A stretch of DNA of 61,200 nt from a virus. Positions 1 through 60,534 of this stretch are shown here, one piece after another; the stretch's first letter is position 1; each line of letters starts with the position of its first letter. Made by a program: the position numbers and the translations under genes. The DNA lies in IMG/VR virus record IMGVR_UViG_3300046744_000205, positions 1 to 61,200 of that record; one strand, 5' to 3'. The notes below the pieces were generated by a model that saw nothing but the letters and a program-made list of their open reading frames with translations, did no database searches and was not told the origin of the DNA.

Positions 1-311
1 CTGTTGTTTACAAAACGAATTGTTCTATAGGGAATCGCAGTTGCACTTGGAAGAGTAATAGTATACGTTCCTGAACCACCTGTCCAATCAAAATCAACTA
101 CGTTAACCATTTGAGTAAGTGTTGATGTTCCTCCTGCTGAAGCATTCACAAATAATACAGGCTCAAGTTTTGTAATTGACTCTGTGCAAGACTGACACAA
201 CTCATCAATGGTATACGCATCTCTCATTGCGTTAGCCTGTGAAGAACCTTTGTTCTCCGTTTCTACTCCCGGTGCTACTCCGTGAAATTTTGTCCCTGAT
301 GGTATTGGCAT
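1..311 (-). CDS. Virion structural/fibre-type protein, 3' truncated by window edge
   Basis: The first 103 codons of a protein nearly identical to the 154-aa product at 59317-59781; the C-terminus lies beyond the window. The N-terminus (MPIPSGTKFHG...KGSSQANAMRDAYTIDEL) matches the opening of the 709-aa repeat fibre at 56583-58712, pointing to a shared virion attachment module. The stop of the gene upstream in transcription (311-562) overlaps this start as TAATG. It is probably a small head or fibre decoration protein; exact role unknown. Confidence 0.75.
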   Translation of the reverse strand, partial: MPIPSGTKFHGVAPGVETENKGSSQANAMRDAYTIDELCQSCTESITKLEPVLFVNASAGGTSTLTQMVNVVDFDWTGGSGTYTITLPSATAIPYRTIRFVNN

Positions 312-562
312 TATCCTGTATATTTTTTAGTCACTCTTCCTGCCTTAGTGTTAGCTACAACAGTTTTACCTTTTCTTCCTGCTCTCTTTTTCTTACGAGC
401 AGTCTTTGCTCTCTCAGCCTTAGTCATAGACTTAGCCTTAGCAAGTGGCAGACAACGGTCAGGGTTCTTCTTATCCTTGCTTGTGCCACAAGCACCCTTT
501 ATTGACCCATCCGTTCCGATGCGTACCCACTTCTCGTCTCTCCACTTTTTTAACTCACCCAT
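311..562 (-). CDS. Small basic marine-phage protein (DUF5872-like), 83 aa
   Basis: Very Lys/Arg-rich protein with a KWVRIGTDGSIKGACGTS start, a CLPLAKAKSMTKAERAKTARKKK core and a basic tail. This pattern is recognisable from short proteins common in marine phages (DUF5872-like by memory). A near-identical paralogue lies at 60115-60369 and differs mainly at the C-terminus. The charge suggests nucleic-acid binding or packaging with DNA in the virion, but the function is unproven. It is translationally coupled to both neighbours by TAATG overlaps. Confidence 0.75.
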   Translation of the reverse strand: MGELKKWRDEKWVRIGTDGSIKGACGTSKDKKNPDRCLPLAKAKSMTKAERAKTARKKKRAGRKGKTVVANTKAGRVTKKYTG

Positions 563-723
563 TAGTAAGACTTCTTTTCACTTCCGTAATATGGGTTGTT
601 CTTTACAGTTCCTCCCATCATTTTTGCAAAAGATGTAGCTTGTGCTTTACCTGTTGCACTATAAGGGAATTTTTTTGTTTTCATCTTGCCCGATGTAGAG
701 CACTTATATTTTACTGTTGGCAT
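562..723 (-). CDS. Small basic protein, 53 aa
   Basis: Starts MPTVKYKCSTSGKMKT and ends NNPYYGSEKKSY, with Lys-rich composition. Its counterpart at 60369-60530 shares nearly all residues, and selection at the protein level between the two copies supports a real gene. The ATG overlaps no upstream gene, and the stop overlaps the start of 311-562 as TAATG. No function recognised. Confidence 0.7.
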   Translation of the reverse strand: MPTVKYKCSTSGKMKTKKFPYSATGKAQATSFAKMMGGTVKNNPYYGSEKKSY

Positions 724-727
724 AATA

Positions 728-850
728 TTATTTTTTTGGCTTAGTGTGTGTGTATCCTTTTTTCTTTAAAGAATTATGCTGAGCTAATGTTTTAGCTACT
801 TTTTTAATTCCTGTTTTACTATACATATTATGTACTTTAAATTTCTTCAT
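728..850 (-). CDS. Small basic protein, 40 aa, only in the left copy
   Basis: Encodes MKKFKVHNMYSKTGIKKVAK followed by a basic tail ending HTKPKK. Its start overlaps the stop of 850-1005 as TAATG, fitting the coupling pattern of this cluster. The right-hand duplicate lacks it entirely, so it behaves as an insertable accessory cistron. Function unknown. Confidence 0.6.
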   Translation of the reverse strand: MKKFKVHNMYSKTGIKKVAKTLAQHNSLKKKGYTHTKPKK

Positions 851-1005
851 TACTTCTTACTCTTCTTTGCGTAGTTAGGGTCTTTACAATATTTACTCGC
901 AGCCATATTCGCATATGCTGAAGGATAGGTATCAAAGGTTCGCTTTGCCCAAGCTATACCTGCTGAACATATCTTGTTACTTTTCTTTTTAGTTCTTCCT
1001 GCCAT
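850..1005 (-). CDS. Small basic protein with AWAKRTFDTYPSAYANMAAS motif, 51 aa
   Basis: A Lys-rich N-terminus (MAGRTKKKSNKICSAG) is followed by an AWAKRTFDTYPSAYAN segment and a Cys-containing tail. This motif recurs in short proteins of marine phages and is reminiscent of the DUF5872/DUF6321 group. A near-identical copy is at 60535-60690. It is coupled by TAATG to 1005-1136. A DNA-binding or virion role is inferred from charge only. Confidence 0.7.
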   Translation of the reverse strand: MAGRTKKKSNKICSAGIAWAKRTFDTYPSAYANMAASKYCKDPNYAKKSKK

Positions 1006-1136
1006 TACTTACCTTGTCCTATGTATTGTTTCTTATAGTTCTTTGAACCTTTATTGCTTGATGTCTTAGACTTAGCGTGTACTCCGGGTCTTTTAACTTT
1101 AGCCTTTTTATTATATGAAGATAGTGTTATTGCCAT
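1005..1136 (-). CDS. Small basic protein, 43 aa (KRPGVHAKSK family)
   Basis: Starts MAITLSSYNKKAKVKRPGVH and continues with a Lys/Ser-rich tail ending YIGQGK. The right-hand homologue (60827-60958) has the same length with about a dozen substitutions, showing protein-level conservation. Both ends use TAATG overlaps. The family is a recurrent short protein in marine phage genomes without assigned function. Confidence 0.7.
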   Translation of the reverse strand: MAITLSSYNKKAKVKRPGVHAKSKTSSNKGSKNYKKQYIGQGK

Positions 1137-1387
1137 TATTTTTTTCTTTTAATTCTCCCTATACCTGATCTTATTAATTGAGGTATATCTCCCAATCCTT
1201 TTAAACCTTTTACTTTAGTAGGAGCTACCCTGCCTTTTGTGTTTCTAGGATCTGAAACATTAGGAAGTTTTATTTTATCAATATCTTTGTCTTTCATCCC
1301 TATGTCATCGTATTTTTTTTTTATTTTAGCGTAATTTGCTACTAAGACATCTCCGGGCTTAACAACTTTAGGTTTTCCTTTGTTCAT
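1136..1387 (-). CDS. Conserved small protein, 83 aa
   Basis: Basic protein starting MNKGKPKVVKPGDVLVANYA, with a central KYDDIGMKDKDIDKIKLPNV and a C-terminal GLGDIPQLIRSGIGRI segment. It is the first gene of the leftward small-protein cluster and is homologous to the truncated gene at 60958-61200. The 43-bp gap to the divergent gene at 1431 carries a plausible promoter. No function recognised. Confidence 0.7.
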   Translation of the reverse strand: MNKGKPKVVKPGDVLVANYAKIKKKYDDIGMKDKDIDKIKLPNVSDPRNTKGRVAPTKVKGLKGLGDIPQLIRSGIGRIKRKK

Positions 1388-1430: not shown

Positions 1431-1883
1431 ATGTCTAAACATAACCCTGCACACGATTATTTAAAATATTGGAAGGTTGTTAGGTATTTTGTAAAAGCCA
1501 AATATAAAATAAATACAGCAGATCTAGATATGCTATTATTTTTATACTCTGAAAGGTATTTCTCAAAAAGTCAATTTAAAGAATTTAATGAACTACTATC
1601 TTGGGATATAAATAGATTTAGTAGGTTACTTAGAGATGGTTGGATATCAGTATTTAGAAAACGTCAAGGTAATAAAAAAACATTGTACGAATTATCGTAC
1701 AAAGGAAAACGAATGATTTCTTCTATATATAGTAAACTAAACGGAGAAGAAATACCAATGGACCGATCAAACAACCCTATGTACGCTAAAAACGTAAGTT
1801 ATTCAGATAAGGTATACAAAAACTTTATAACAGATATGAACAAATACATTAGAGAACAACGACAACATCATTCTCAGAAATGA
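1431..1883 (+). CDS. Winged-helix DNA-binding protein (MarR-like fold), 150 aa
   Basis: Starts MSKHNPAHDYLKYWKVV and contains a helix-rich DLDMLLFLYSERYFS / LSWDINRFSRLLRDGWISVFRKR / LYELSYKGKRMI arrangement. This looks like a MarR-type winged helix: recognition helix, then a beta-hairpin wing. The ATG at 1431 is preferred over upstream in-frame codons because those overlap the promoter region. It is the only rightward gene between leftward genes, and its 3' end overlaps the 3' end of groES (1849-1883) convergently. It is a candidate transcriptional regulator of the neighbouring late or chaperonin genes. Confidence 0.7.
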   Translation: MSKHNPAHDYLKYWKVVRYFVKAKYKINTADLDMLLFLYSERYFSKSQFKEFNELLSWDINRFSRLLRDGWISVFRKRQGNKKTLYELSYKGKRMISSIYSKLNGEEIPMDRSNNPMYAKNVSYSDKVYKNFITDMNKYIREQRQHHSQK

Positions 1884-2106
1884 TGGTGTATGGCTCATTC
1901 TCAATCAGCATTGTAAACCCTGCTCGCTTATCGTAGTATATCTCGTCATCTTCCTTAATGACCTCTACTGTACTACCCGGCTTTACAACCTTACCCTTCT
2001 TATATCGCATCTGATTTGCATCTTCTGCTGACAACAACAACCCGGAGGAGGTTTTGATTTCCTCCTCGATTGTTTTAATCACTATATACTTTCCTATTGG
2101 TTTCAT
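1849..2106 (-). CDS. groES: Co-chaperonin GroES (Cpn10), phage-encoded
   Basis: An 85-aa protein with the Cpn10 opening MKPIGKYIVIKTIEEE, then a mobile-loop region with the SGLLL hydrophobic tripeptide context (residues ~20-24), a KGKVVKPG strand and a C-terminal YTIISENDVVVVL. The length is slightly short of bacterial GroES (~95 aa). It caps the GroEL ring during folding. The start overlaps the groEL stop by 4 nt (ATGA-type coupling), so the order is groEL-groES, the reverse of the usual bacterial operon. The 3' end overlaps the convergent winged-helix gene. Confidence 0.9.
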   Translation of the reverse strand: MKPIGKYIVIKTIEEEIKTSSGLLLSAEDANQMRYKKGKVVKPGSTVEVIKEDDEIYYDKRAGFTMLIENEPYTIISENDVVVVL

Positions 2107-3707
2107 TTCTCTTCGTAGCTTCTTGCCATTGTTATAATAGCGTTAGTGGATAGAATAGTTACCGCAACTGATACAGCATTCTGTAGTGCGTTCTTAGTTA
2201 CCTTCAACGGGTCAATAACACCCATCTTGTACATATCACCGAACTCACCTGTCTTAGCATTGTATCCGTAATTCTTTACAGGGTTATCTGTCAGCTTTGA
2301 CGATATGTCATCAACACTTACTCCTGCGTTTCTTATAATTTGCTTAAATGGTTCTAAGCAAGCATAAGCCATAATCTCAACTGCTTTATGGTTATAATCT
2401 TTTCTCTCACCAATAGATGCAACACTAGCGTGCTCTAATGCTACACCACCTCCGGGTAATATACCTTCCTCAAGTGCTGAACGTACTGCACAGACAGCAT
2501 CATCAATCCTGTCATATAGCTCCTTCTGCTCAAGGTCCGTCTTACCACCGGCATATATCACACCTATACCACCTGTTAGTGATGCGATACGAGATAGTAT
2601 AAATTCTTTAGCTTCTTTGTTAGCTGCGTTCTTATGCTGCTCCCATAGCTGCTCAACCCTCTCATCAATCACATCACTATGCGTGTCCTCATCTTTAATG
2701 ATAATAGTTGACTTATCCTCTGCAATAATCTTAGCTGCGTGACCTAGGTCCTCCATTGTCATAATGCTCAGGTCATCACCTGTCTTCTCAGAGAAGTATG
2801 TTGCACCTACCGAGATAGCTATGTCCTGCATCAGCTCGTGCTGCTTGTAACCAAAGTTAGGTGGCTGAACCACACATACCTTCAGGTTACTCTTCATCAC
2901 ATTCGCTGCTAGCGTGTTAAGTACGTTAGTTGAACACGGTGCTATAATCAATAACTTCTTATTTTCCTGTATGATTGGTTTAAGTATGGTCTCAATGTTT
3001 AGTATGTTTGCTATCTCAGCATCACTAACCAACACATATGTATCTTCTAATATACATTCATCCTTCTTTTGATCATTAATGAACAATGGACTAGAGTACC
3101 CTCTATCAACCTTTATACCTCTAGTAGATTCATAATACGTCTCAGACGTCTGCGACCTATCTACGGTCACTATACCGTTCTCTCCTACATCCCCATAAAC
3201 ATCCGCTATGATCTTTCCTAACTCCGGGTCGTTATTTGCAGAAATAGTTGCCACATCTTTGAGGTTTTTCTTTGTAACCTTCCTAGATGACTTCTTTAAG
3301 TTCGCAACAACATCTTCTGTTATCTTTACCATATCACGAAGTACCTCTGTCTTATTTGTGTCATCAATCAGCTCCATACCCTTTAAGACCAAAGCCTCAG
3401 TAAGTACAATAGCTGTTGTCGTTCCATCACCTGCTGATGATGCCGTACGTTCAGAAGCCTCCTTCATCATACGAACCGCTAAGTTCTCTACAGGGTCAAT
3501 TAAGCTAACTGCCTTAGCTACTGTGACACCATCCTTGGTTACTGTAATGCCGTGTGTGTGATTTGGTGATTCGATGAGTACAGTCTGACCTGACGGTCCT
3601 AATGTTGATTTGACTGCATCTGAAATGGTTTTTATACCATTGATGAGTTTGTCTCTTCCCTCCTTACCGAATTTTAAGTTCTTCGGAGTGTATCCGGATT
3701 CATTCAT
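2103..3707 (-). CDS. groEL: Chaperonin GroEL (Cpn60), phage-encoded
   Basis: A 534-aa group I chaperonin. ATP-site motifs are visible: TLGPSGQTV (residues 35-43), KDGVTVAKA (58-66), GDGTTTA (93-99), and the C-terminal signature AVRSALEEGILPGGGVAL. The Asp in the RIDDAV segment, matching the hydrolysis Asp398 region of E. coli GroEL, is kept. The C-terminus ends MARSYEEK and lacks the Gly-Gly-Met tail of bacterial GroEL. It probably folds capsid or tail proteins, alone or mixed with host rings. The divergence from host sequences and the tail loss indicate a phage lineage rather than a recent acquisition. It has its own promoter 22 nt upstream. Confidence 0.95.
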   Translation of the reverse strand: MNESGYTPKNLKFGKEGRDKLINGIKTISDAVKSTLGPSGQTVLIESPNHTHGITVTKDGVTVAKAVSLIDPVENLAVRMMKEASERTASSAGDGTTTAIVLTEALVLKGMELIDDTNKTEVLRDMVKITEDVVANLKKSSRKVTKKNLKDVATISANNDPELGKIIADVYGDVGENGIVTVDRSQTSETYYESTRGIKVDRGYSSPLFINDQKKDECILEDTYVLVSDAEIANILNIETILKPIIQENKKLLIIAPCSTNVLNTLAANVMKSNLKVCVVQPPNFGYKQHELMQDIAISVGATYFSEKTGDDLSIMTMEDLGHAAKIIAEDKSTIIIKDEDTHSDVIDERVEQLWEQHKNAANKEAKEFILSRIASLTGGIGVIYAGGKTDLEQKELYDRIDDAVCAVRSALEEGILPGGGVALEHASVASIGERKDYNHKAVEIMAYACLEPFKQIIRNAGVSVDDISSKLTDNPVKNYGYNAKTGEFGDMYKMGVIDPLKVTKNALQNAVSVAVTILSTNAIITMARSYEEK

Positions 3708-3728: not shown

Positions 3729-3758
3729 CAAATATAAATAATTTTAACGAATGATCAA
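3729..3758 (-). promoter_or_regulatory. Promoter of groEL-groES
   Basis: On the minus strand, TTG (3756-3758) and TATATTTG (3729-3736) are separated by 19 nt. This matches the Bacteroidota sigma factor consensus (-33 TTG/TTTG, -7 TAnnTTTG). Transcription would start near 3722, about 15 nt before the groEL ATG. An inverted copy of the AATCGTCA iteron (TGACGATTTT, 3760-3769) abuts the -33 element and could be an operator. Confidence 0.75.
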
Positions 3759-3782
3759 GTGACGATTTTCATTTTTTCTATA

Positions 3783-3811
3783 TAGTAGTAGTAGTAGTAG
3801 TAGTAGTAGTA
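3783..3811. repeat. TAG trinucleotide microsatellite (about 9.7 units)
   Basis: Nine uninterrupted TAG units followed by TA lie between the groEL promoter and iteron array A. A TAC tract, the reverse complement class, sits at the equivalent place before array B (15038-15052). Such tracts are prone to length changes. Confidence 0.9.
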
Positions 3812-3841
3812 ATTTTTTTTTCTCAATTATTTTAGGGTAAA

Positions 3842-3951
3842 AATCGTCAAAATCGTCAAGGTATTTGATAATCAGGCTTTTAACCTCTGAAAATCGTCAC
3901 AAAATCGTCAGAAAATCGTCAAAAATCGTCACAAAAAAGGGGATAATCGTG
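3842..3951. repeat. Iteron array A (AATCGTCA)
   Basis: Six direct copies of AATCGTCA start at 3842, 3851, 3892, 3903, 3914 and 3924. A degenerate AATCGTGA follows at 3944, and an inverted copy lies at 3760-3769. Spacings of 9-11 nt place sites on nearly the same helical face. The first four copies have 9-41-11 spacing, identical to array B upstream of the primase-helicase. It may be an origin iteron set or an operator for a phage DNA-binding protein. Confidence 0.85.
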
Positions 3952-15094: not shown

Positions 15095-15163
15095 AATCGT
15101 CAAAATCGTCAACATACTTAGTAATCAACTACTTAAGTCAAAATAATCGTCACAAAATCGTCA
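15095..15163. repeat. Iteron array B (AATCGTCA)
   Basis: Four direct AATCGTCA copies start at 15095, 15104, 15145 and 15156. Spacings of 9, 41 and 11 nt are identical to the first four iterons of array A. TAATCA lies in the 41-nt gap in both. The last copy ends 5 nt before the primase-helicase ATG, so binding would repress translation or transcription, or the array marks a replication site. Confidence 0.85.
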
Positions 15164-19873: not shown

Positions 19874-20503
19874 ATGAAATTAGTAAAAGATGTAGATACG
19901 GAATATAAAGATTATTTGCGTATCAGAAATGTTTTAAAAAAAGGGTACAGCGACCCTAGTACAATATCCTCTCTTTGTAAAAAGCATTGGGCAGATACTG
20001 AAAGAATTAAAAATGTAAAAGAAAAACTAGAGCATCTCGTTGAGTGGGGTCAGGTTGAAAAGATTGAAACACAGAAAAGCATCGGTGTAAAAAGTGGAGT
20101 GGTTAAAACATATAAGTACGTCCTTAAAGAAACCTCACCATCATTATATTCATCTCTAGGTGTAGATAGTGTTGTCGGATGGCAAAAAATAGGCAGTATG
20201 AAAGGTAGAATAAGATTTGATAAGTTACTTAATATTATATCTAGCTTTTACTCACAGCCAAAATTATTGATACTTTCTAATTGTAGGAGAAGAGAATTTG
20301 TAGTTCCTAGGCAAATGTTCTGTTACATCGCTAAATTCAATATGCCTAATATAACATTAAAAGAGATAGGTTCTTTTTTAGGAGGTAGGGATCACTCTAC
20401 AGTTATACATGGCATTAAAACAGCAGGAGATCTTATTGAAACAGATAAGCAATTTAGGGAAGAATATAAAAGGTTAGAAAGTTTTATTTTATCTAAGTTA
20501 TGA
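19874..20503 (+). CDS. DnaA domain IV fused to an N-terminal winged helix, 209 aa
   Basis: The C-terminal ~75 residues carry VVPRQMFCYIAKFNM, LKEIGSFLGGRDHSTVIHGI, the DnaA domain IV signature (GRDHSTV) that reads DnaA boxes. The N-terminal ~110 residues (NVLKKGYSDPSTISSLCKK, GQVEKIE...YKYVLKE) look like a winged-helix domain. There is no AAA+ ATPase, so it cannot melt DNA alone; it probably recruits host DnaA or helicase, or blocks host initiation. Matching DnaA boxes lie at 4822-4841. Confidence 0.85.
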   Translation: MKLVKDVDTEYKDYLRIRNVLKKGYSDPSTISSLCKKHWADTERIKNVKEKLEHLVEWGQVEKIETQKSIGVKSGVVKTYKYVLKETSPSLYSSLGVDSVVGWQKIGSMKGRIRFDKLLNIISSFYSQPKLLILSNCRRREFVVPRQMFCYIAKFNMPNITLKEIGSFLGGRDHSTVIHGIKTAGDLIETDKQFREEYKRLESFILSKL

Positions 20504-22330: not shown

Positions 22331-25300
22331 TCATCTTCTCTTACTTCTCGTGTTTCGTCCTTCTCTTTTTGCTCCTGACCTTCCCTTTTCCCCTGTAGGA
22401 GCTTTTACATCTCCAAGTCTGTCAATGAATTTTTGCTCTTCAGCTTCCTCTTTTTTTACGGCATCTACATAATCTTTATCTCTCACTTCTTGTCTTAATC
22501 TATTAGGCTGATAAGAAGGAGTTACGCCTAATGCGTTCATCATTTCCTCTTCTTGTTCCATAAAATCCATTTTATCTGCTGAGAAATAATTATAAGTGCC
22601 AATAAAAGGATCAACATTAAATCCTACTAAAGCCTCAGCCGCAGGTCTAGCAGAATTAAATAAGAATCCTCTGTCAGAATCAGCATTTTTTAATGTTCTT
22701 CGGTAAATGACATTAAATGGATTTACCACATCTTGAGATCTAAATTTAGGTTTTTCATAAAAATCGTTATCTAAATACGCTATAGCCTTTCCTCCTAAGT
22801 CAAGCTCTTCTAGCGTACTACCAATTAAGGGGACTGCATATAATTGCTTCGTAAATAACATAATCTCTTTAAGAGAATCCATCACTTCCTTTAAATCTTC
22901 ATCATCTCCCTTTATTAACCTGAATATATTAGCTGTCATTTCAAATAGTATGTTTACTAAAAACCCATTTATAACAAAGCTTCTTACATCTTCTGTCCTT
23001 GGGACTTGACTTGAAAAAATAGACCTATATATATTTCTAGTGCTTTGAGCTAGTTTATTTTGTTGTGCAAAAATTGCACTACCAAACATAAGAAAAGTTC
23101 TTACTAAAGGATTCTTAGAACCTTGCAATTGAGTTCTTTCTGTTTCCCTTCTAGTTTGCTGAGTAGAGTTATAGTCGTTAAGTAATCTAAGTGCATCACT
23201 TTTATTCATGCCATTGGCAATATTTCTTTTGTAGTTGATCATATATCCAAGAACACCAAGAACATCACCAATAGTTGTTGGTGCACCTTGAACGGCAGCA
23301 AGCTTTGCAGCACCTCTATCAGCCCTAGTAAACTTTCTTCTTCCACCTCTTAATCTAATTCCTGTTCCTGATTCCAAACTATATACCTCACCTTTAAGTG
23401 CCTGCTTCCAACGATCTTTAAAATCAGGAGAAGCTTCAAGGGCTTCAGCAATAACACCATCTTTGCCTATCAAATCCTTTCCTAGTGACGCATACATTCT
23501 TGCAGCATCAATTAAAAACATCATTAAATCTACTCTTCTTCTAATAATTGATGGCACTTTTCCTTTGTAGTTCTCACCAAAATAATCATATTTAGGGAAA
23601 GCCTGAATAAATGATATAGTTTGTTTCGCAATCTGTATAGTTTTGAAACCTAAAACAACCCTAGTCATATTACTTAGCAATCCTCTAAAAGGAGCAAAAC
23701 CTTTATATGCATCTACACCAAGTGAATTAGGCGATAACTGTTTAAGAACAAATGCTCTAATTGCATTATCAATATAAAGATTTTTAAGAAGGATTTTAAC
23801 AGCAGGTATTTCAAAAAAAGATTGAAGTTCTTTAGCTCCCTTTGCATAAGCCTTATATCCCTCCATGGTATTTATATACCTGTCAAGTTTTGTGAAAAAA
23901 TCTATATCTGTTAAATCAACATCTGTTTCTTTATCTGTTCTTGCTTTCCAATATGGAGCTGTTTCTGTGTTGAAAGATTCAGAGAAATTTCCATCTTTTG
24001 TTAATTCGCTATATTTTTTACTATCTTTTTCTGTACTTAATGTCGTTAATGGGAAATAATTTTCTATTGCTCCTAAATTATTATAGTTTACTTCAGAATA
24101 TACTTCATTTATACCATCATAGTATTCATTACTTAAAAAGTCTACGATAGAATCGGCAAATGCTGTTAATTCTTTTCCAAGATGTTTTTCTATAGCATCT
24201 ATTTTATCTTGAGTAAATCCTTGTTTCTCAAGTTTTTTCTTTACATTTTCATTTTTCCAATACGCATATATGGTCATAAGCTCACTAGGACCAAACGTAC
24301 CTATACTTTTGCCCCCCAAAGAACTAACGATACCATCTATTTCCATGCTACCCTTTCTTTGTGCTATAACCTGAATAGCTTTGTATCCTTTTAGCGTTAC
24401 CCCTGTCTTTGACTTATATTTAGCACCTATGTTATCTACTATTGAATTTAATTTTTTTTCCATAGCCTGCAACCCTGCAAGTCTATTCGTATTCATTACA
24501 TTCAACTTATCGTATATTTTTTTTCTAAATAGATTAAACCCTTTGGTAGTCCTGTCAGCTATATTGGTTAGCGTTTCAATGTTATTCATAAGATTATTTT
24601 TAAGTGATCTTATCATATAGGTATAACCACCGTATTTAAATAACTTTACATAATCACTAATCGCTTCAGGTATTTTTAGTTGTTTAAACTTTTTATATAT
24701 TTCTAGTCTTTTAGCTTTTATTTGGTTGTTGTCTAAGAGATTTCCTTTATCATCAAATAACTCAGGGTTGGTTTCTTTTATTTGATTTACAGCTTCTGCT
24801 TCTTCCTCTAAACGCTTTTTAGACTCAATAGACTGTATATCTTTTAAAACTTGTATACCTTCTTTTTTATTACTTTTTAAACCATTATATACCTCAATAA
24901 CCTCCTCCAAAGTCATATTGTCTATGTTGTTAAACATTTTATATGCCAAGAAATCATTATATATTTTAATCTCTTTTGGAGTTAGTTTTTCTTCTTTGTC
25001 TACTTTTTCTTGTATTTGATCATTTAAATATTGGTTTTCATTTATGGCTGCTGCCAACGCATCTATTTTTATTTGATCTCCACTAGTTAATGTTTGAAAA
25101 ATATCTTTTGCACTTTTAAAGAAACTTTTGGCATCCTTACCAATTTTTGCTTTTCTTGTAGAGCTATCTTTTATAAGTTTTTTTATTGACTTAATAGTCT
25201 TTGCTTTATCGGATGCTCTCTTTTTTCGTATAGCATTTAATATTTTTTCTGTTTCTATTTTTACATTAACCATCGTTAATGATCCAATGCTTTTTATAAT

Positions 25301-28300
25301 ATCATTTAAAACTTTTCTTTCATCTTTACTAAGCTGTAATGTTGAAACATTAGACAAAGCCATTCTTTTCATTTCTTGAATAACTTTAGCTAAGTCTTTT
25401 GTCCCTTTTACTCTATCTCTAATACTCTTTCTGAGGTTATTTATTTTTTTCTGAAAAGTAAAGTTACCCTCTTTTAGATTAATCGATCTATTAAACCCAT
25501 CAATTAATTGCATCTTTACTAGTGCATTTTGCTTTTTAAATATAGGATTAGATTTTAATATTTTTATACCCTGCTCCCTTACTTTTGTTACAGATGCTTT
25601 TTTATTTTTATTAATAAATTTATCTAACTCTTTCTTTACTTCTTGAAATAGCTTAACAGCACTTTTTGCACCATCAGCAACCGTTTGAAACTCTACAGGA
25701 ATTTTAGTAAATATGTCAAGGTTTATTTCTAAAGCAGCATCTATGTCTTTTGCTTTAAATTTTCTATCAATAAGAACTTTTCTTATTGCTGCATCCGGGA
25801 TATCTTTACTTCTACCGTATTTAATGATATCATACATTGAATCACCATCAGGAGCTGTCATTAATTGCAATGCATCATTAAACGCATCTACGTTCTCTTC
25901 AAATAGTTTTTCGCCTGACAATAAATCAACAGATACAGCCTGAACAAATTCATCTAATGTAACGTCTTCAAGTTGTTCGGCGGTATACTTAGATATACCC
26001 ATTAACTTCTTTACATTTTGAAATAGGTCTTTTAAGAATTCTTTAAAGCCTTTTCTTTCTGCGGAAGCCTTAACAAAAGATTCACCCTTATCCCCTATTG
26101 CAGTAGCTAAAGCTTCTTCATAAATATATGTATTTATCTGCTCATCAGTAGCACCATTTTTTCTCATCTGATCGGTCACCCTTTTATAATCAGAACTTTG
26201 TTTTACGGCATCTACATAAGATTTCCCTTCTTTACTTTGTATAAGATCCATTCCTTTATTGTATAATAAAGGTTTTAGTTTCTTAACTACGTTTAACCAT
26301 ATATGTCCAAATTCATGTAGTGGTGTGTTGAAATTTTCAAAAGCAGGATTTAAATATAATTTTCCATTATATATAGCACCATAAATTTTTTGATTCTTAG
26401 TAGAAAGTTTTTTAGCATTCAAGTCATTAACTAACGCATCAAATTCCTCTTGAGTTGTAGAAACCCCTACACTTGGAAATGCTTTTGTTAGCCTATTTAC
26501 AAACTTTTCGTAAGCAGTTGCAACTTTTTCTGTTATCTCATAAGCTGTACTAGTTGTTACCATTGCAGATTGCCCTGCATATCCTATGGCTTCTGATCTA
26601 GTAAAGTCAGTTAATTCTGAAAGCGGACCTAATGATTCTTCAATTAATGTTCTTGTAGCTGTTAAAGATTTTGTTTTTAATATTTGCTTTAAAGCATCAG
26701 AAACTTTTTTTCTATCCTTATCTTTTAATTTCTTTACATCACCTTTCAATAAAGTTTTTACAATATTATCTATTGCATTTTTTCTCTCTTTTGGTTTAAG
26801 TGATTTATCATCAGTCTTTCTCTTTGCTTCTTTTATCTTGTTGTATACATTAGACTCAGACTCCGTTGCGTCTCTTTTTACATCTCCTGTTCTTTTTCTA
26901 TCTAAACCTAAAGATCTTTCTTCTAGTTCAGAGAAATACTTATCCGTAACGCTATAGTATGGAACGGACTCTTCCATAACACCAATAGCTCTACCTCTTA
27001 TGTATATAGGGTAATTATTATGTGTATCTAAACCTTCTTCTATTTGCTGTTCTGTAGATATTTTTGCTGACTCTATTATGTCTTTTATTCCTTGGTCGTA
27101 TTGTTTTTTGTTTATTTCTTTTCTATCAAGCTTAGCATCAAGTTCTTTTTTTAAATCGCTAACTTTTACACCATCCTTATTTGTTATTTCAAGAACAGTT
27201 GTCATTGTTCCAACAGGTTGGTCTTTTATAAACTGCTCACTATTTTCATCAACTAATGTCTTCAAAGAAACGCCTAGGTTCTGAAGCTCTTTTGAAACTT
27301 CTGTCCCTGCATCCATTTCTAAATCTTCAGCGAGTATACTCTGCATTGCAGCAGCTCTAGTTTTTACACCTTCGTTTTCTTGAAGTAATTTAAAGAACGA
27401 TAATGTATCGTTGCTTTTTTCTAAATGTTTCTTTGCATTTTTTACATTTTTATCTGTTGATTTTGAGATATGGTCTTTGACCAAATTCCAAATTTCTGCC
27501 TTTTTTTCTTGAGGAATTTTTTCATCTAACGCATTAGCCGTTTCTATGTTTGAATATATTCCTCCATCACCCATATTATAAACTACGGATGCGTCACCAT
27601 TCATAGCACCCCTAATTATACGGTTTGCTGCTTGCTCCTTAATAGAAGCCCAAGCAACTTTCCCAAACATACCATCCATTAATGGGAAGAACGATCCCCC
27701 CATTTTTTTATATTTATTGGTTTTTTTATTATATGGCTTACTAGGATCTTCTAATTGAACTTTAAGCTTATCTGCCATTAAAAGATTTAATTTTTTACCA
27801 ATTATATCTTTTAATTTAAAACCCTTTACCTTTTCAATTAAGCTTTTATTTTCTTTAAAATCAACAGGTTTTGGTGATACATCAGGTTCTTCAATTTCAA
27901 ATGCTTCTTCAGATTCTTCTTGCTCGTCTAGGTTGCTAAATGTTTCTATAGCCTTTTCCTTTAACTTATCTTTTCTTTCGTCAGCAGTACCTTCTTCAGC
28001 TAATTGAAACTGAGGATCTTCAGACTTTATAAGATCTTCTAATCTTTTTGCTTCTTCGTCGATAAATTCTTGTGTTTCATCTACATCTGCTGATGTTTCT
28101 AATATGGCATCATCTTTTATGATGTATTGCTCTTCAACTGTACCTCTTGCATCACGAGTAATTAGTTTCACAACCTGAGCATCCGAATCGTCAATTAGTT
28201 TCTCCTCTTGCTTTTTTACCTCACTTAAAGGTTGATTTGTATCTTCAACTTTTACCACGTCAATCGTAGTGCCGGGAGGAACTGTGAATTTTTTTAATGG

Positions 28301-31228
28301 CTTGTCTCCTTTGTAATCACTAGCTAATTTCTTATCAGCAGCAGCAAATTCACCTTTCTCTATTTTGTGTGCCGAAAAAGGCTTACCATCTTTTATTTTA
28401 GGCTGCATACCCTTAAATAAGGTTTGCTCCTCAGTAGTTGTTATTTGTTCTCCCGGAGTCTTAGCTTGTTCAAGCTCAACTTTTGCTTCAGTTTTAAGTG
28501 GTTTCTTTATTTCTTTAAATTGACTGCCATCTTTTATTATTCCTGCCCCCCCTAACTCTATATAATTTGACCCTTCATCAAATTCTGTCTTATTCTCACC
28601 CCCATCTGTTATTTTTCCTACCTTAACAAAACCTTTTAAAACTCTTCCATAACCTTGAGCAAAACTCATAGACTCAGAAATATAAGTTCCGCCGGAAAGA
28701 TCATCTTTTAACTGCTCTCTACTTGCTTTTGTTCCATGAAACATGACTCTTGGCATCATGTTTTTGTCTGTCATTACTGTTACATTGTTTTCTGACAATA
28801 TTTTTAATCTGTTTTCTTTAGTTTTTTCATTAGTTGGTAGATTATCATATTGTTCTTTTGCTTTCTGCCAATCCCCGTACTTATCTATAAACTCATCAGA
28901 TGTTATCGTATCAATTATATCTTGAGATGTTATATCTTCTTTATTATCCTTAATATCTTTTATGTCTTTTTTATTACTTTCCGCTATTTCAGGATTTTCA
29001 CTTTTAGATAATTTTTCAGCAACTTCCAACCCTTCGTTAATAGATTTCTCTATATCTTCATATGCTACAGTTTCTTCAGGGTTTATTTTTTGTTTTCTTT
29101 CTTCTTGTATTTTTATATCAGGTGCAGCTTCTTCAGTTACTTTTTCTTCAACCTCTACTTCAGGTGCAGCTTCTTCAGCTACGTCTTCGGCAACTTCATT
29201 TACTATTTTTTGGGCATCTTGATTTACTTCTTTTTCTATTTCACCAAACTTAGCCTTAACATCATCAGTTTGCCCTGAAAGCCAATCTTTGTAAGTGTCT
29301 GCAAATTGCTGACCTGCTTTTGTTGCACTACCAAATAAAACACCCATTCCAAATGTAGATAATCCAAATTCCAAATTTTGATCTAACTTCCCGAATCTTT
29401 CAACCCAAAGGTCTTTTACTTTCTTTAAATCTCCATCTGATTCATTAATTATATTACCTAACTCGTTACCATACTCCTCAGCCATTTCACCCAATCCTGT
29501 GCCTGTTCTTTGTGCAGCAGCAGCCAAAAATTTATGTGCTTTAGATGCATTTTTGCCAAAAGCTTTGAGCATTGTCTGCATATATAAATTTCTTCTACCT
29601 ACAGCAGAAAGTGCTTTTGAAAATGTTTCACCTAAAGCACCTGATAAGAATGAAGCCTCATCTTTAACTGCTTCATCTCCAAAAAATTGTGCAGCTTCGT
29701 AGGTTATACCCTGCTCAGCAGCACCTAATAAAAATTTACTAAACCTGTTGGTATCTTTTAGTTTATCAAAAGCCCTTCCTATTTTTGTTATATTTTTTAA
29801 ACCCCTAACAGTACCACCTGCAAGAGCAAAATCTTTCATCATAGCTAGGGTTGTGCCTGTCATAGACCCGGCTTTTTCGCCTGTAGTCATATCAAAAGAT
29901 GACTCTAATGCTTTAATATTTTCTTCTGATATATCTTTACCTACATCAGCTTTCTGTAGTACGTCGAAAATAATACTAGACTCTTCTTGCTCTGTAGTAG
30001 ATAAACTTGCATCGCTAATAGTAGAAGCAAAGGATTTACCAAATTGACTAAAAAAATTATCTTCTTTTAATGCTTTTCTGTTTAATAAAGCAATTGGTGT
30101 TAATGCCTCAAGTTTTTTATATGCCCTAACATATCTTCTAATAACAGGACTAGCCCCTGATATGTCATCAATAAGTGGTATAGTAGAAAGAACCATATCT
30201 GAAGCTCTCATCGCATCTCTAGCTTCATCATATTCTAATACCGCAGCATCATAATAGTTGAGGAACTTTTCATAAGGAGTCTCACCTTCTTGCTTTTGCA
30301 TTTCAGGTGTACTTACGTAAATTTCTTTAGCTGCTTCAACAGGTTTAAAAAAAGATTTATACTTAGTTTGTAGTTTTAATAAATTTTCTTTTAGTTGTTT
30401 GTTTTCAGGATCTTTAGATAATTCAAATCTAGCCTTCTTTATAGCTTCTTGATTTTCATTAAGATATTGTTCTTTGATTTTTGTTAGACTTTGTTCATAC
30501 CCTTCTTTTTCTTTAATTGCATCACTAAGAGCTTTTTCAGAATTTCGAAGCCATTTGTTTTGTTCAGGGTCTTTATATATTTCTATTCTTTCGTCGACGT
30601 TTTTTATATCCTGCAACAATTTATACTCACGTTTATCTGATTCACCTAGAAACCCTGAAGCCATTTCATACCTCATGTCTCTAATTTGATCTTTATTTTC
30701 GTATATATTGTTATCAATTAAAGACTGATCCTTTTCTTTAACTTTTTTTACATAGTCTAAATTTTCAAATTGTTCTTCAGGTATAGTTGGTGCTTCAAAT
30801 TGTTGTTCTGTTTCCGGAGCAGTTATAGGCTCAACAGACATTGGATCAAACCTACTTTTTTTTTGTGGTGGTTGTTCTTGTTTTTTCGGAGGATCTATAG
30901 TTTCTCCGACAAGCATTATATCCTCTTCACCTGATGATGAGTCCGAAGAACCATTTCCTTCCTGAACTTGCTCTGTAATAGATTCCGTAACCTCCATCTC
31001 TCCATTTGATTCTGAAGAGTCTTTTTTTTTTAAACCTACATTATCTTTCCACGTGCCTAGATCACTTTCTACAAAACCATTTTGCGACAAATACGAATGC
31101 ACATTATCCTGTACATTTTCTTTTGAAGCAATATTGTTTTTCCATGTTTCAAAATCACTTTGAGTTTTATTATCAGCAGTAAGCTGATTCCAAATGTTTT
31201 TTAATCTTTTATCGTCCATGTTGTTCAA
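22331..31228 (-). CDS. Giant polyvalent internal/ejection protein, 2965 aa
   Basis: One 8.9-kb gene, about 15% of the genome. Near residue 829, VMFHGTKASREQ...GGTYIS...AQGYG matches the ART-PolyVal ADP-ribosyltransferase pattern. A second ART-like segment follows (LASDYKG, KKFTVPPGTTIDVV, QEEKLID). Near 1637, FNTPLHEFGHIWLNVVK gives an HExxH zinc-peptidase motif, with a likely third ligand in YEEALATAIG. The C-terminal ~700 residues (LLSNMTRVVLGFKTIQIAKQ) lack recognised motifs but resemble late-packaged protein regions. Polyvalent proteins are thought to be injected with DNA to counter host defences. It is the last large gene of the ejection-protein group. Confidence 0.85.
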   Translation of the reverse strand: MNNMDDKRLKNIWNQLTADNKTQSDFETWKNNIASKENVQDNVHSYLSQNGFVESDLGTWKDNVGLKKKDSSESNGEMEVTESITEQVQEGNGSSDSSSGEEDIMLVGETIDPPKKQEQPPQKKSRFDPMSVEPITAPETEQQFEAPTIPEEQFENLDYVKKVKEKDQSLIDNNIYENKDQIRDMRYEMASGFLGESDKREYKLLQDIKNVDERIEIYKDPEQNKWLRNSEKALSDAIKEKEGYEQSLTKIKEQYLNENQEAIKKARFELSKDPENKQLKENLLKLQTKYKSFFKPVEAAKEIYVSTPEMQKQEGETPYEKFLNYYDAAVLEYDEARDAMRASDMVLSTIPLIDDISGASPVIRRYVRAYKKLEALTPIALLNRKALKEDNFFSQFGKSFASTISDASLSTTEQEESSIIFDVLQKADVGKDISEENIKALESSFDMTTGEKAGSMTGTTLAMMKDFALAGGTVRGLKNITKIGRAFDKLKDTNRFSKFLLGAAEQGITYEAAQFFGDEAVKDEASFLSGALGETFSKALSAVGRRNLYMQTMLKAFGKNASKAHKFLAAAAQRTGTGLGEMAEEYGNELGNIINESDGDLKKVKDLWVERFGKLDQNLEFGLSTFGMGVLFGSATKAGQQFADTYKDWLSGQTDDVKAKFGEIEKEVNQDAQKIVNEVAEDVAEEAAPEVEVEEKVTEEAAPDIKIQEERKQKINPEETVAYEDIEKSINEGLEVAEKLSKSENPEIAESNKKDIKDIKDNKEDITSQDIIDTITSDEFIDKYGDWQKAKEQYDNLPTNEKTKENRLKILSENNVTVMTDKNMMPRVMFHGTKASREQLKDDLSGGTYISESMSFAQGYGRVLKGFVKVGKITDGGENKTEFDEGSNYIELGGAGIIKDGSQFKEIKKPLKTEAKVELEQAKTPGEQITTTEEQTLFKGMQPKIKDGKPFSAHKIEKGEFAAADKKLASDYKGDKPLKKFTVPPGTTIDVVKVEDTNQPLSEVKKQEEKLIDDSDAQVVKLITRDARGTVEEQYIIKDDAILETSADVDETQEFIDEEAKRLEDLIKSEDPQFQLAEEGTADERKDKLKEKAIETFSNLDEQEESEEAFEIEEPDVSPKPVDFKENKSLIEKVKGFKLKDIIGKKLNLLMADKLKVQLEDPSKPYNKKTNKYKKMGGSFFPLMDGMFGKVAWASIKEQAANRIIRGAMNGDASVVYNMGDGGIYSNIETANALDEKIPQEKKAEIWNLVKDHISKSTDKNVKNAKKHLEKSNDTLSFFKLLQENEGVKTRAAAMQSILAEDLEMDAGTEVSKELQNLGVSLKTLVDENSEQFIKDQPVGTMTTVLEITNKDGVKVSDLKKELDAKLDRKEINKKQYDQGIKDIIESAKISTEQQIEEGLDTHNNYPIYIRGRAIGVMEESVPYYSVTDKYFSELEERSLGLDRKRTGDVKRDATESESNVYNKIKEAKRKTDDKSLKPKERKNAIDNIVKTLLKGDVKKLKDKDRKKVSDALKQILKTKSLTATRTLIEESLGPLSELTDFTRSEAIGYAGQSAMVTTSTAYEITEKVATAYEKFVNRLTKAFPSVGVSTTQEEFDALVNDLNAKKLSTKNQKIYGAIYNGKLYLNPAFENFNTPLHEFGHIWLNVVKKLKPLLYNKGMDLIQSKEGKSYVDAVKQSSDYKRVTDQMRKNGATDEQINTYIYEEALATAIGDKGESFVKASAERKGFKEFLKDLFQNVKKLMGISKYTAEQLEDVTLDEFVQAVSVDLLSGEKLFEENVDAFNDALQLMTAPDGDSMYDIIKYGRSKDIPDAAIRKVLIDRKFKAKDIDAALEINLDIFTKIPVEFQTVADGAKSAVKLFQEVKKELDKFINKNKKASVTKVREQGIKILKSNPIFKKQNALVKMQLIDGFNRSINLKEGNFTFQKKINNLRKSIRDRVKGTKDLAKVIQEMKRMALSNVSTLQLSKDERKVLNDIIKSIGSLTMVNVKIETEKILNAIRKKRASDKAKTIKSIKKLIKDSSTRKAKIGKDAKSFFKSAKDIFQTLTSGDQIKIDALAAAINENQYLNDQIQEKVDKEEKLTPKEIKIYNDFLAYKMFNNIDNMTLEEVIEVYNGLKSNKKEGIQVLKDIQSIESKKRLEEEAEAVNQIKETNPELFDDKGNLLDNNQIKAKRLEIYKKFKQLKIPEAISDYVKLFKYGGYTYMIRSLKNNLMNNIETLTNIADRTTKGFNLFRKKIYDKLNVMNTNRLAGLQAMEKKLNSIVDNIGAKYKSKTGVTLKGYKAIQVIAQRKGSMEIDGIVSSLGGKSIGTFGPSELMTIYAYWKNENVKKKLEKQGFTQDKIDAIEKHLGKELTAFADSIVDFLSNEYYDGINEVYSEVNYNNLGAIENYFPLTTLSTEKDSKKYSELTKDGNFSESFNTETAPYWKARTDKETDVDLTDIDFFTKLDRYINTMEGYKAYAKGAKELQSFFEIPAVKILLKNLYIDNAIRAFVLKQLSPNSLGVDAYKGFAPFRGLLSNMTRVVLGFKTIQIAKQTISFIQAFPKYDYFGENYKGKVPSIIRRRVDLMMFLIDAARMYASLGKDLIGKDGVIAEALEASPDFKDRWKQALKGEVYSLESGTGIRLRGGRRKFTRADRGAAKLAAVQGAPTTIGDVLGVLGYMINYKRNIANGMNKSDALRLLNDYNSTQQTRRETERTQLQGSKNPLVRTFLMFGSAIFAQQNKLAQSTRNIYRSIFSSQVPRTEDVRSFVINGFLVNILFEMTANIFRLIKGDDEDLKEVMDSLKEIMLFTKQLYAVPLIGSTLEELDLGGKAIAYLDNDFYEKPKFRSQDVVNPFNVIYRRTLKNADSDRGFLFNSARPAAEALVGFNVDPFIGTYNYFSADKMDFMEQEEEMMNALGVTPSYQPNRLRQEVRDKDYVDAVKKEEAEEQKFIDRLGDVKAPTGEKGRSGAKREGRNTRSKRR

Positions 31229-46095: not shown

Positions 46096-48531
46096 TTACC
46101 TAGGATCAAACTCAGCTAGGTCAAACCCATCTAGACTATCCTCGTTAGATTCAAAGTTCATAGGTGGTAAATTATTCTTTCTTTGATTTATTAATTTTGA
46201 TTGCTCAGTATTTTGTTGGCTAATCCTATCTGACTTAGCTTTTTCTCTATTATCTTCTCTACTTTGAAGCTGTTGTGATTCCATACCTCTAATCTGCATA
46301 TTTAAGCTAAACTCTTTATCCATTAATTGAGATTTAAGCATTGCTTCATTTTTCATCTTTTCAATATCAAATGCTATTTCTGCTTGCTTAATCTGCATTG
46401 TAGATTGCGTTTCTGCTTGAAGTTTCTGCATAGATGCTTGAGCAGCCATCTGCTGAGATTGCATTTGCTGCTGAGCCTGAATAGCCTGAGCCTGCATCTT
46501 CATTTTTTCCTCTCTCTCTTGTTTAGCCTTACGTTTTACTTTTAGTAACTGATTAGCTAACTTAATATTTCTAATCTCACGAATATCAATTGCATCTTCA
46601 AGATCTATACCTCCTTTTGACAATGCCACCTGAATGTTTTGTTCAAGCATTGCTTTTTGCTCCTCGTCAGGAGAAACCTCAATAAAAATGCCAAAGTCAT
46701 ATAAATATAAATCATTTATATCATTTAATATGGCTACATTGTATTTACCTATTTTATTAATGAACTCATCTTTAAAATCAGAATACTGCAATACATCACT
46801 AACTCTATAGGATAAACTTTCAGATAATGATCTATACATATAAAGACTTCCATCTAGTATGTGTCTAGTTGCTGTATTTGAATTAGCTGCTGCTAGTTTC
46901 TGTAATCCAACCAAAGAATCAGGATCAGGCATACTGCCATCTCTAGCTTCATTTAGTCCCGTTACATTTCTAATTTGGTTTAGATAATGATTATAATTAC
47001 CTATAAGCATTTGAGTTTTAGATGCACCTGAGTTAGATGTTAGCTGCTGTATTGGTACTCTTGCGTTGTTAAATTCACCATCGCCTGTATAGCTTCTACC
47101 AATAACACTACCTGTTTGGAAATATAGTCTTAATGCATCTTCAGGGTTGTATGCTGCTCCTGTACCTAAGTCTACTTCATTCAATCCATCAGCATCAATA
47201 AACACACCATCAGGTACAACCTTAGCAATAACTTGCTGTAGTTTTAAATGAGTAATCTGAATCAAATCAGCAAATGGTATCATACGTCTAACTAAAGACT
47301 CAATAACACCTTTATACATTCTTGGTGCTGTAGCAACGTAGTTAGGAAGTGCGTGCTGTGTAGCAGACTTTGGTCTCACCATATTCTCAGCCATTTCCCA
47401 TTTAAGCATTATGTTAGTACCCATAACCATAACACCGTTATACCACACATCAATGGTCTTTTCTACTTTTTCAAATGACCCTTCCTCCATCATCTCTTCG
47501 GGTGGATTGAATTGGTCATCTTTTTCTACCATTGATATAGCTCCACTATCTTTTATCTTTTTCTTATATACAACCTTTTTAGTTGTCTTATAATTAAAGT
47601 ACATTAAAGTGGTAGTGTCTCTATAAAATATATCATTATCATAATACTGAGCTACGTTGTAGTAATCATACCAAGACTGCCCATATTTAGATATTTCTTC
47701 TAAGTCTGCATTTGTTAATGTAGGATCTATTTTCTTTAGCTCAATAATAGGAACTGTTTTAATTTCACCCCAATAGAAACAATCTTTAAAGTTAGGGTCT
47801 TCGGTGTAGCTATACACAATATTAGCAGGGTCTACATATTCAACCTTTACGCCTGCCCCCGGCAAAAACTCTGTCTTAGCTACACCAATTCCTAATACAG
47901 TTAAGTCATAATCAATTCTCTTACGAATATCCTCGTAATGATTTTCGTCGAACATTGTTTCAATAGCAGTCTCCTCTGCTATTTCAATCGCAGGCTTGTA
48001 ATTAAGCTGCATATACAATGATAATTCTTCGTCAGAACTAGGCATTTCTTGAGGACTCATACTAAATGGATTTATCCCTGTTTGTTCTTGTATATTTTCT
48101 AATATAGGTTTTGCCGCAATTTCTCCTTCAAGCAATTGTTGAAACCTACTTCTTCTTGACTGAGATAAAGCATCTTGAGAATATGCCTTAACTTTAAATA
48201 GTCTATCAGACATACCGTTAACAACGATGTCTACGAACTTTGGTAATATAGGGACAGGTGTCCAATCTAGGTTTAAGTATGATAAGTCACCATCTACGGC
48301 TAACTCATTTTTATATTTTCCTACAGATTGCTCACCTCGAGCATATAGTCTTAGTCTGTGAAAATCTCCCCATTGGCTATAAAATCTACATTGTCTCCCA
48401 TCTTTCTTGAACCATTCATATTGAATTGCTTGTCCAATCTGCAAACCAAATTCATCAGTAGCTTTCTCGGCATCTGATACAAATTGACTAGGGAATCCTG
48501 TAGATGATATGTTTATTTTAACATCGTTCAT
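46096..48531 (-). CDS. Portal protein, 811 aa
   Basis: The N-terminal region LQIGQAIQYEWFKKDGRQCR, FYSQWGDFHRLRLYARGEQS, NLDWTPVPILPKFVDIVVNG matches crAss-like portal sequences as I know them. The C-terminal ~120 residues are a Gln/Met-rich coiled coil. The dodecameric ring forms the DNA entry. It overlaps the terminase gene by ATGA. Confidence rests on sequence recognition and order. Confidence 0.85.
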   Translation of the reverse strand: MNDVKINISSTGFPSQFVSDAEKATDEFGLQIGQAIQYEWFKKDGRQCRFYSQWGDFHRLRLYARGEQSVGKYKNELAVDGDLSYLNLDWTPVPILPKFVDIVVNGMSDRLFKVKAYSQDALSQSRRSRFQQLLEGEIAAKPILENIQEQTGINPFSMSPQEMPSSDEELSLYMQLNYKPAIEIAEETAIETMFDENHYEDIRKRIDYDLTVLGIGVAKTEFLPGAGVKVEYVDPANIVYSYTEDPNFKDCFYWGEIKTVPIIELKKIDPTLTNADLEEISKYGQSWYDYYNVAQYYDNDIFYRDTTTLMYFNYKTTKKVVYKKKIKDSGAISMVEKDDQFNPPEEMMEEGSFEKVEKTIDVWYNGVMVMGTNIMLKWEMAENMVRPKSATQHALPNYVATAPRMYKGVIESLVRRMIPFADLIQITHLKLQQVIAKVVPDGVFIDADGLNEVDLGTGAAYNPEDALRLYFQTGSVIGRSYTGDGEFNNARVPIQQLTSNSGASKTQMLIGNYNHYLNQIRNVTGLNEARDGSMPDPDSLVGLQKLAAANSNTATRHILDGSLYMYRSLSESLSYRVSDVLQYSDFKDEFINKIGKYNVAILNDINDLYLYDFGIFIEVSPDEEQKAMLEQNIQVALSKGGIDLEDAIDIREIRNIKLANQLLKVKRKAKQEREEKMKMQAQAIQAQQQMQSQQMAAQASMQKLQAETQSTMQIKQAEIAFDIEKMKNEAMLKSQLMDKEFSLNMQIRGMESQQLQSREDNREKAKSDRISQQNTEQSKLINQRKNNLPPMNFESNEDSLDGFDLAEFDPR

Positions 48532-50774: not shown

Positions 50775-51033
50775 ATCCTTGTTTTGTATCTATCTTACTT
50801 TTACCTTTTTCAGCAGACTCTAACGCCTCCCTTTCAAGTTCTATCCTATTTAATATCTCAAACGCATCAAATATTGCTAACTTCTTTGTAGCTGCTGCAT
50901 TCTTTAGTTTATCGGCAGCAAGATCATCTTCCGGGTCGTGCTTTATAATATCTTCCTTAGCAACCTTTATTAACTGCTCAACAGCTCTATGACCTGCCTG
51001 TATTATTTTTTTCTTTGTTTCCTTTACGTTCAT
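50752..51033 (-). CDS. Probable small terminase subunit, 93 aa
   Basis: Starts MNVKETKKKIIQAGHRAVEQ, with a Lys/Ala-rich helical middle and a coiled coil. It overlaps the large terminase by 23 nt, the usual place for the small DNA-recognition subunit. Sequence alone is not diagnostic. Confidence 0.6.
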   Translation of the reverse strand: MNVKETKKKIIQAGHRAVEQLIKVAKEDIIKHDPEDDLAADKLKNAAATKKLAIFDAFEILNRIELEREALESAEKGKSKIDTKQGFAERRSK

Positions 51034-51593
51034 AGGCTCATTGTTATTTGATGGTCGTATACTCTATATAGCTTTTCATCATCAACCGTAAACTCATACT
51101 CGCTATCAGGAGTAAAGCTAATTCTATCCCCGGGCTTTAATCCCATAGATGTCAGATACTCGTTAGGATATTTCATTATACCTACTAACGGCTCTTCTAC
51201 ACTATTCTTATATATAACAGAATCCTCTTTTTTGATAGGCTCTACAAAACAATATCTATCGTGTGCGTTCCAACCCTTATCATTCTTATACATAAAGAAC
51301 TGTTCGTTGTCTACAAAAAATAGGTCATCCTTAAAAAAGCTCCTTCCGCTTTTTTGCCTACCTTTCATATCGTTATAAAACTTAAATACGTTGTGATGTA
51401 CGAGTAAGGTGTCTCCTACCTTGACTCCTCCTGTGTAGCCGATTGGAAGCTCGACAACCTCAGCATATCTGTTTGAAAACATATGGTCTTCTTCAGATGT
51501 ACTAACGACAAGCTCTAGTCCTGCTATCTCTCTTGTATTGTCGTATCGTCTTCCTTTTAATGGCTTTACTATAAAGTAAAACGGTGATTTCAT
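51030..51593 (-). CDS. Tandem Cpn10/GroES-like protein, 187 aa
   Basis: Two GroES-like segments are visible. The first has FYFIVKPLKGRRYDNTREIA, GVKVGDTLLVHHNVFKFYND and KDDLFFVDNEQFFMYK. The second has YCFVEPIKKED, GLKPGDRISFTPDSEYEF and YRVYDHQIT. I recognise this as a co-chaperonin-like protein in marine phages, possibly analogous to T4 gp31. Its place between virion and terminase genes suggests a role in capsid folding with the GroEL ring. ATGA overlap with the terminase small subunit. Confidence 0.7.
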   Translation of the reverse strand: MKSPFYFIVKPLKGRRYDNTREIAGLELVVSTSEEDHMFSNRYAEVVELPIGYTGGVKVGDTLLVHHNVFKFYNDMKGRQKSGRSFFKDDLFFVDNEQFFMYKNDKGWNAHDRYCFVEPIKKEDSVIYKNSVEEPLVGIMKYPNEYLTSMGLKPGDRISFTPDSEYEFTVDDEKLYRVYDHQITMSL

Positions 51594-59781: not shown

Positions 59782-59782
59782 A

Positions 59783-60369: not shown

Positions 60370-60530
60370 TAGTAAGACTTCTTCTCACTTCCGTAGTATG
60401 GGTTGTTCTTTAAACTCCCTCCTGTCATTTTTGCGAAAGCTGATGCTTTTGCTTTACCTGTTGCACTATAAGGGAATTTTCTTGTTTTCATCTTGCCCGA
60501 TGTAGAGCACTTATATTTTACTGTTGGCAT
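60369..60530 (-). CDS. Small basic protein, 53 aa
   Basis: MPTVKYKCSTSGKMKTRKFP, then KASAFAKMTGGSLKNNPYYG. Counterpart of 562-723 with about seven substitutions. TAATG overlap to the next gene. Confidence 0.7.
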   Translation of the reverse strand: MPTVKYKCSTSGKMKTRKFPYSATGKAKASAFAKMTGGSLKNNPYYGSEKKSY

Positions 60531-60534
60531 AATA

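Follow-up and report, generated by a model that had tools for sequence, protein, structure and literature searches.

A groEL–groES operon in a tailed phage of Bacteroidota points to a phage-dedicated chaperonin with its own putative lid

Introduction

Why a tailed phage should encode a chaperonin together with a co-chaperonin, whether it took them from its host, and what they fold are the questions raised by a groEL–groES locus in the IMG/VR virus record IMGVR_UViG_3300046744_000205. We analyzed this record as a whole (61,200 bases; hereafter the window). A preliminary description of the DNA had proposed a complete pair in reversed order, with intact catalytic motifs, no Gly-Gly-Met tail and its own promoter beside an iteron copy, and had considered such a pair unusual for a phage. 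GroEL was previously found in 36 Bacteroidetes-phage genomes and related to homologs of Cellulophaga phages, according to Nishimura 2017 (PMC5332604).

Results

The first 1,370 bases of the window (1–1370) overlap with its last 1.7 kb (59471–61200) at 87%–97% identity. The genome is therefore probably circular or terminally redundant, about 59.5 kb in length, with strain variation at the join; the window ends resemble those of a circular genome assembled across two strains. Portal, terminase and virion proteins matched in PHROG identify a tailed phage, the large terminase subunit being encoded at 48528–50774 on the minus strand (PHROG 6681, E = 4.1e-178), and the host group is Bacteroidota. 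The groEL–groES operon is located outside the structural gene block, at the far end of which lies an ORF of 2,965 residues (22331–31228, minus strand). A megablast search of window positions 1–24000 against phages matched nothing.

Both genes of the pair are on the minus strand. The groEL gene (2103–3707) encodes a group I chaperonin of 534 residues, which exceeds the curated Pfam cut-off for PF00118 (Cpn60_TCP1; E = 4.6e-57, 194.2 bits versus 34.3) and matches PHROG 5725, "chaperonin groEL" (E = 1.8e-139). The groES gene (1849–2106), whose start shares 4 nt with the groEL stop, encodes a Cpn10 of 85 residues, identified by PF00166 (Cpn10; E = 7.4e-13, 48.8 bits versus a cut-off of 21.1), PHROG 3188, "co-chaperonin GroES" (E = 1.1e-15), alignment and an AF2 model. 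The pair is thus complete, as previously described. An ORF on the plus strand (1428–1883) converges on groES and shares about 35 nt with its 3′ end. This ORF matches PHROG 17028 (function not assigned; E = 5.5e-12) and, weakly, PHROG 12817 (transcriptional regulator; E = 1.7e-4), and its counterpart in the phage genome MW202828 is annotated as "repressor protein".

The order of the two genes, groEL then groES, is indeed the reverse of the bacterial one: groES is upstream of groEL in 81 of 82 bacterial loci, the remaining locus having no groES in the stretch examined. A relative is encoded in 429 of 441 matched IMG/VR stretches, and the best 80 of these 429, with GroELs 66%–95% identical to that of the window, were used for comparison. 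A groES follows groEL on the same strand in 79 of the 80; the sole exception is a 4.1-kb contig (L020) in which no groES was found. Given that this order is common to these relatives and to the cultured Elemovirus phages, it is a mark of the phage lineage rather than of the window phage alone, so the element of surprise attached to it is lost. The same holds for a phage with both genes. Some phages carry both groEL and groES, as stated in PMC7185714, and annotated records (MW202828, Elemovirus) contain both; such pairs are therefore not new and are already documented, in related phages too. In Maribacter phage Panino a Cpn10 match likewise lies downstream of GroEL; in Immutovirus, Callevirus and the Bacteroides phage SJC03, Cpn10 precedes GroEL. 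The spacing between groEL and groES varies among the relatives from –44 to 2,616 nt, so tight co-expression is not universal. Of the 82 sets that have both genes, 13 show the 4-nt overlap, and the window enters this count twice. In one close relative (L005, 912–2529; 95% identity in the best segment), groEL falls into two ORFs, perhaps because of a frameshift or a sequencing error. All 17 long records of the lineage contain GroEL, having been selected for it. Over 50,697 phage records 258 gave a GroEL match, some of these "phage" records being bacterial contigs (from Salmonella and from Acinetobacter, the latter contig including host genes).

Upstream of groEL, on the same strand, is a –7 box, TATATTTG (3729–3736), conforming to TAnnTTTG, which we take to be the Bacteroidota-type promoter consensus. 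A TTG at –33 (3756–3758, minus strand) precedes the –7 box by 19 nt and is weak alone. In 64 of the best 80 relatives, TAnnTTTG begins 20–45 nt before groEL; shuffled upstream regions average 2.2 such cases and never exceed 6. It occupies the same position in 46 of 62 distinct groEL upstream regions. Random stretches taken from these loci contain it in 477 of 21,247 cases. The proposal that the operon has its own promoter is supported by this conservation. Several rightward promoters in the window are of the same type.

Next to the promoter lies an array of iteron-like boxes with the core TCGTCA. One copy of AAAATCGTCA (3760–3769, minus strand) adjoins the –33 element and ends 1 nt from the TTG, and six further exact copies lie at 3840–3931 on the plus strand. 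Altogether, the window contains 9 exact copies, against 0.13 expected by shuffling; 7 are upstream of groEL (3760–3931) and 2 precede a primase-like ORF at 15169, where a second cluster contains 4 copies of the 8-mer AATCGTCA (15095–15163, plus strand). Among the upstream regions of relatives, a box is repeated at least four times in 18 of 69 sets, compared with 1 of 690 shuffles, with a core that drifts between AATCGTCA, AGTCGTCA, ATGACGAA and AATGTCGA. One of these 18 repeats (L069, at –891 to –821) is probably unrelated. The core drifts between relatives and the cluster upstream of groEL persists. The exact 9-mer core is restricted to the nearest relatives (L003 and L004, 6 copies each; none in L002 and L005), and one iteron common to the whole family was therefore discarded. 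Six genomes, that of the window among them, were scanned over their whole length; in 4 of these, two or more boxes within about 100 nt form another group some 9.5–11 kb away, as read from the positions.

The adjacent iteron is therefore part of a genuine array; its reading as a sign of regulated groEL expression is not supported. Given the second cluster before a primase-like gene, the boxes are likelier to represent an origin or a site for a phage-wide regulator, as judged from their placement. Between the boxes and the promoter is a run of TAG trinucleotides (3783–3812, plus strand), which we take to resemble a DnaA-trio; such a run is seen in just 15 of 80 upstream regions, and a DnaA-trio was thus discarded as a general feature. 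A 209-residue protein (19874–20503, plus strand) contains DnaA domain IV (PF08299, E = 1.7e-16), with no match to the DnaA AAA+ domain in this protein; domain-IV matches occur in 17 of 17 long records, often two per record. In three genomes (G005, G015 and G016) the cumulative GC-skew minimum lies no more than about 2.6 kb from the start of groEL, a weak signal because the gene strand also switches near groEL.

Alignment of the phage clade revealed that the ATP- and Mg-site residues Asp52, Asp87, Thr89–91, Asp398, Asp495, Gly32 and Gly414 are invariant in 41 of 41 rows, and the catalytic motifs are intact in this sense. None of the 41 clade rows carries more than one GM motif within its last 25 residues, in agreement with the reported absence of a Gly-Gly-Met tail, and 76 of 81 bacterial rows have one or more GM or GGM motifs in this stretch. 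On the apical surface, Tyr199, Phe204, Leu237, Arg197 and Asn265 are kept, and the substitutions L234E, V263A and V264A are fixed in 41 of 41 clade rows, as is E386D. Inter-ring residues are variable among the clade rows. The altered apical surface looks like one tuned to another lid or client, and these lineage-fixed changes would suit a lid that is matched to this GroEL and has a modified mobile loop.

The window GroES lacks the roof loop, having about 9 residues fewer than Salmonella GroES and about 4 fewer than the flavobacterial proteins in the alignment. As the flavobacterial roof is already shorter than that of Salmonella, the phage-specific loss relative to flavobacteria amounts to only about 4 residues. 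The mobile loop, SGLLLSAED, is 2 residues longer than that of bacterial GroES and carries the hydrophobic tripeptide within SGLLLS; Ser21, Gly22, Leu25 and Ser26 are invariant in 42 rows. The AF2 model (pLDDT 80.8) predicts a normal Cpn10 fold, with a Z-score of 11.2 against Thermus Cpn10 (4v4o_P) and 8.6 against T4 gp31.

A further protein of 187 residues is encoded directly upstream of the terminase gene (51030–51593, minus strand) and matches PHROG 13932, "co-chaperonin GroES" (E = 7.4e-26); this profile also picks up the short groES in 10 of 17 long records and gives hits in 9 of 14 genomes used as controls. In 17 of 17 long records the long protein precedes terminase on the same strand, within about 1.3 kb, and relatives annotate it as cpn10/GroES or as hypothetical. 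Its C-domain is a Cpn10 by profile comparison with bacterial GroES (hhalign 96.7%, E = 4.5e-10), compared with only 10.6% for the N-domain. Set against short phage GroES, the long-protein profile reached 11.7%, and a clear C-domain match came only with a more diverse set. The window protein scores below the Pfam Cpn10 cut-off (14.2 versus 21.1), Cpn10 was not matched by Pfam in the elemo long protein, and a sequence search of the PDB with the long-protein profile gave a best E-value of 0.59. The AF2 model (pLDDT 72.5, low in places) superimposes on chain 7ekq_R over residues 1–187 with a VIA-align Z-score of 10.4, the next chain scoring 8.0, and its N-terminal part (1–104) on gp31 with a Z-score of 6.8. 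The long protein thus models as two fused Cpn10 domains, in the manner of chloroplast Cpn20, the N-domain being predicted by the model alone. Phage phi18:3 has both the long protein and a short Cpn10, and a search for GroEL in it gave no match, so the long lid is independent of a phage GroEL.

To place the GroEL, we built a tree from 73 of 135 prepared rows, which included every second of the 40 IMG/VR loci offered and 38 bacterial rows. The window, 20 IMG/VR phages and MW202828 form a phage-only clade (support 88/88, below the starred level), and all 38 bacterial rows fall in one 43-row set (support 99/95) that excludes the window. The deep branching order is unsure, given the long branches of AR9, EL, MW202497, Panino and elemo. 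The preliminary description had named placement within the host's own groEL as the outcome that would indicate recent acquisition; the window GroEL instead lies outside all sampled bacterial GroELs. Recent capture of the host groESL operon by the phage, with the gene order flipped afterwards, is accordingly highly improbable. SJC03 and an uncultured 735-kb phage do nest among the Bacteroidota GroELs, and the tree can therefore detect such capture; in the same tree, however, the window stays in its phage-only clade, and cellular GroELs are only 36%–41% identical to it among the matches listed in a genome scan, against the 66%–95% of the best 80 of 429 phage relatives. A host-derived groESL was rejected on two grounds, the GroEL not being inside the Bacteroidota GroELs of the tree and groES not being upstream of groEL. 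The placement supports the view that the window GroEL represents an old phage lineage of group I chaperonins rather than a recent host capture.

Discussion

We consider it likely that the operon encodes a phage-dedicated, ATP-driven chaperonin that folds phage proteins, probably those of the virion. In our putative model, groEL and groES would form a two-gene operon transcribed from its own Bacteroidota-type promoter, situated in a presumed divergent control region between rightward early genes and leftward genes. GroEL would hydrolyze ATP as a group I chaperonin with GroES as its matched lid, and the phage would thereby own a folding cage during infection, replacing host GroEL or working beside it, with virion proteins as the most likely client. 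From the sequences we infer the pairing of GroEL with GroES, the folding of phage proteins and the virion client. With Elemovirus growing on Flavobacterium, cultured relatives make phage-specific folding of virion proteins testable.

Two other readings concern the client and the lid. The operon could mainly serve the host proteome, through stress relief or replacement of the host chaperonin in infection, instead of a specific virion client. Its own promoter, of a type shared with rightward promoters, and its position apart from the structural genes would suit this role, but the changes in the apical domain and the lid would point to specialized clients, and we regard the reading as improbable. 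It is also quite unlikely that the GroEL is a lid-free chaperonin of the giant-phage type (EL, OBP and AR9), with groES incidental or intended for host GroEL. The chaperonins of these three phages are reported to function without a lid (PMC9598537 and PMC7185714), and phages can encode GroES for host GroEL, as phi18:3 with its Cpn10 genes and no GroEL match illustrates. EL and AR9, however, lie far outside on very long branches at about 25%–26% identity, and groES beside groEL is conserved in 79 of 80 relatives. Membership in the EL/AR9 group was rejected since the window does not group with them in the GroEL tree, subject to the long branches and with OBP outside the tree.

Beyond the phage-dedicated pair, we tentatively suggest, as a possibility that we hold to be rather doubtful, a three-part phage chaperonin composed of GroEL, a roofless single-domain GroES and a Cpn20-like two-domain lid encoded with terminase and portal. 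Mixed caps, as with chloroplast Cpn10/Cpn20, would then give an asymmetric or enlarged cage in which a head protein of the phage could fold. Possibly the two-domain lid predates the other parts, because it also occurs in phi18:3, which would have to use host GroEL. If real, it would place a Cpn20-like lid outside plastids, with a bearing on what sets lid symmetry and cage size. In the literature searched, with subscription journals mostly outside it, we found no paper on a tandem phage co-chaperonin. Cpn20-type subunits consist of two tandem GroES-like domains, and the Chlamydomonas Clp complex contains CPN11, CPN20 and CPN23, according to PMC5780408 and PMC8889267, respectively. Judging by its length of 194 residues, 7ekq_R from this complex would be a tandem subunit of the Cpn20 type. 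The model of the long phage protein aligns with this chain from end to end, but the protein differs from chloroplast Cpn20 in that only its C-domain is a Cpn10 by sequence profile.

The single-domain lid is reminiscent of T4 gp31. Both are phage lids without roof loops and with a lengthened mobile loop, by 2 residues in the window GroES and 6 in gp31; in gp31 these two changes are held to make the cage large enough for the capsid protein (PMC6318259). By analogy, the changes in the window GroES would point the same way, toward a larger cage. However, gp31 pairs with host GroEL, and the structural alignment of the two lids has only 7% identity; the window GroES may thus work like a gp31-type lid, a likeness of function and not of membership in that type.

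As for whole genomes, the best annotated relative is MW202828.1, "Podoviridae sp. ctfjg026" (Manatee Spring), a 60.85-kb circular environmental genome with 59.7% identity to the window in GroEL, 78.0% in TerL, 55.3% in GroES and 66.5% in the long co-chaperonin. It has the same groEL–groES order and convergent "repressor" neighbor, but its long co-chaperonin is annotated as hypothetical. The cultured Flavobacterium phages elemo (Elemovirus) resemble the window in size (about 60 kb), TerL (46%), the order groEL then groES, and a 180-residue "chaperonin cpn10" located beside TerL like the long protein of the window. They differ in that their GroEL is just 36.6% identical and that TerL and its neighbors are opposite to groEL, whereas both are on the minus strand in the window. 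Callevirus of the Pervagoviridae (phi38:1, Calle_1) likewise has GroEL, Cpn10 and a long Cpn10-like protein, but in the bacterial order, with Cpn10 first and one gene between, and its GroEL is about 39% identical. Pseudomonas phage EL and Bacillus phage AR9 also encode GroEL homologs, whose reported independence of a co-chaperonin sets them apart. Set beside those reports, the window lineage would represent the opposite case to the lid-free chaperonins of EL, OBP and AR9, namely a phage-encoded GroEL matched with a GroES from the same genome.
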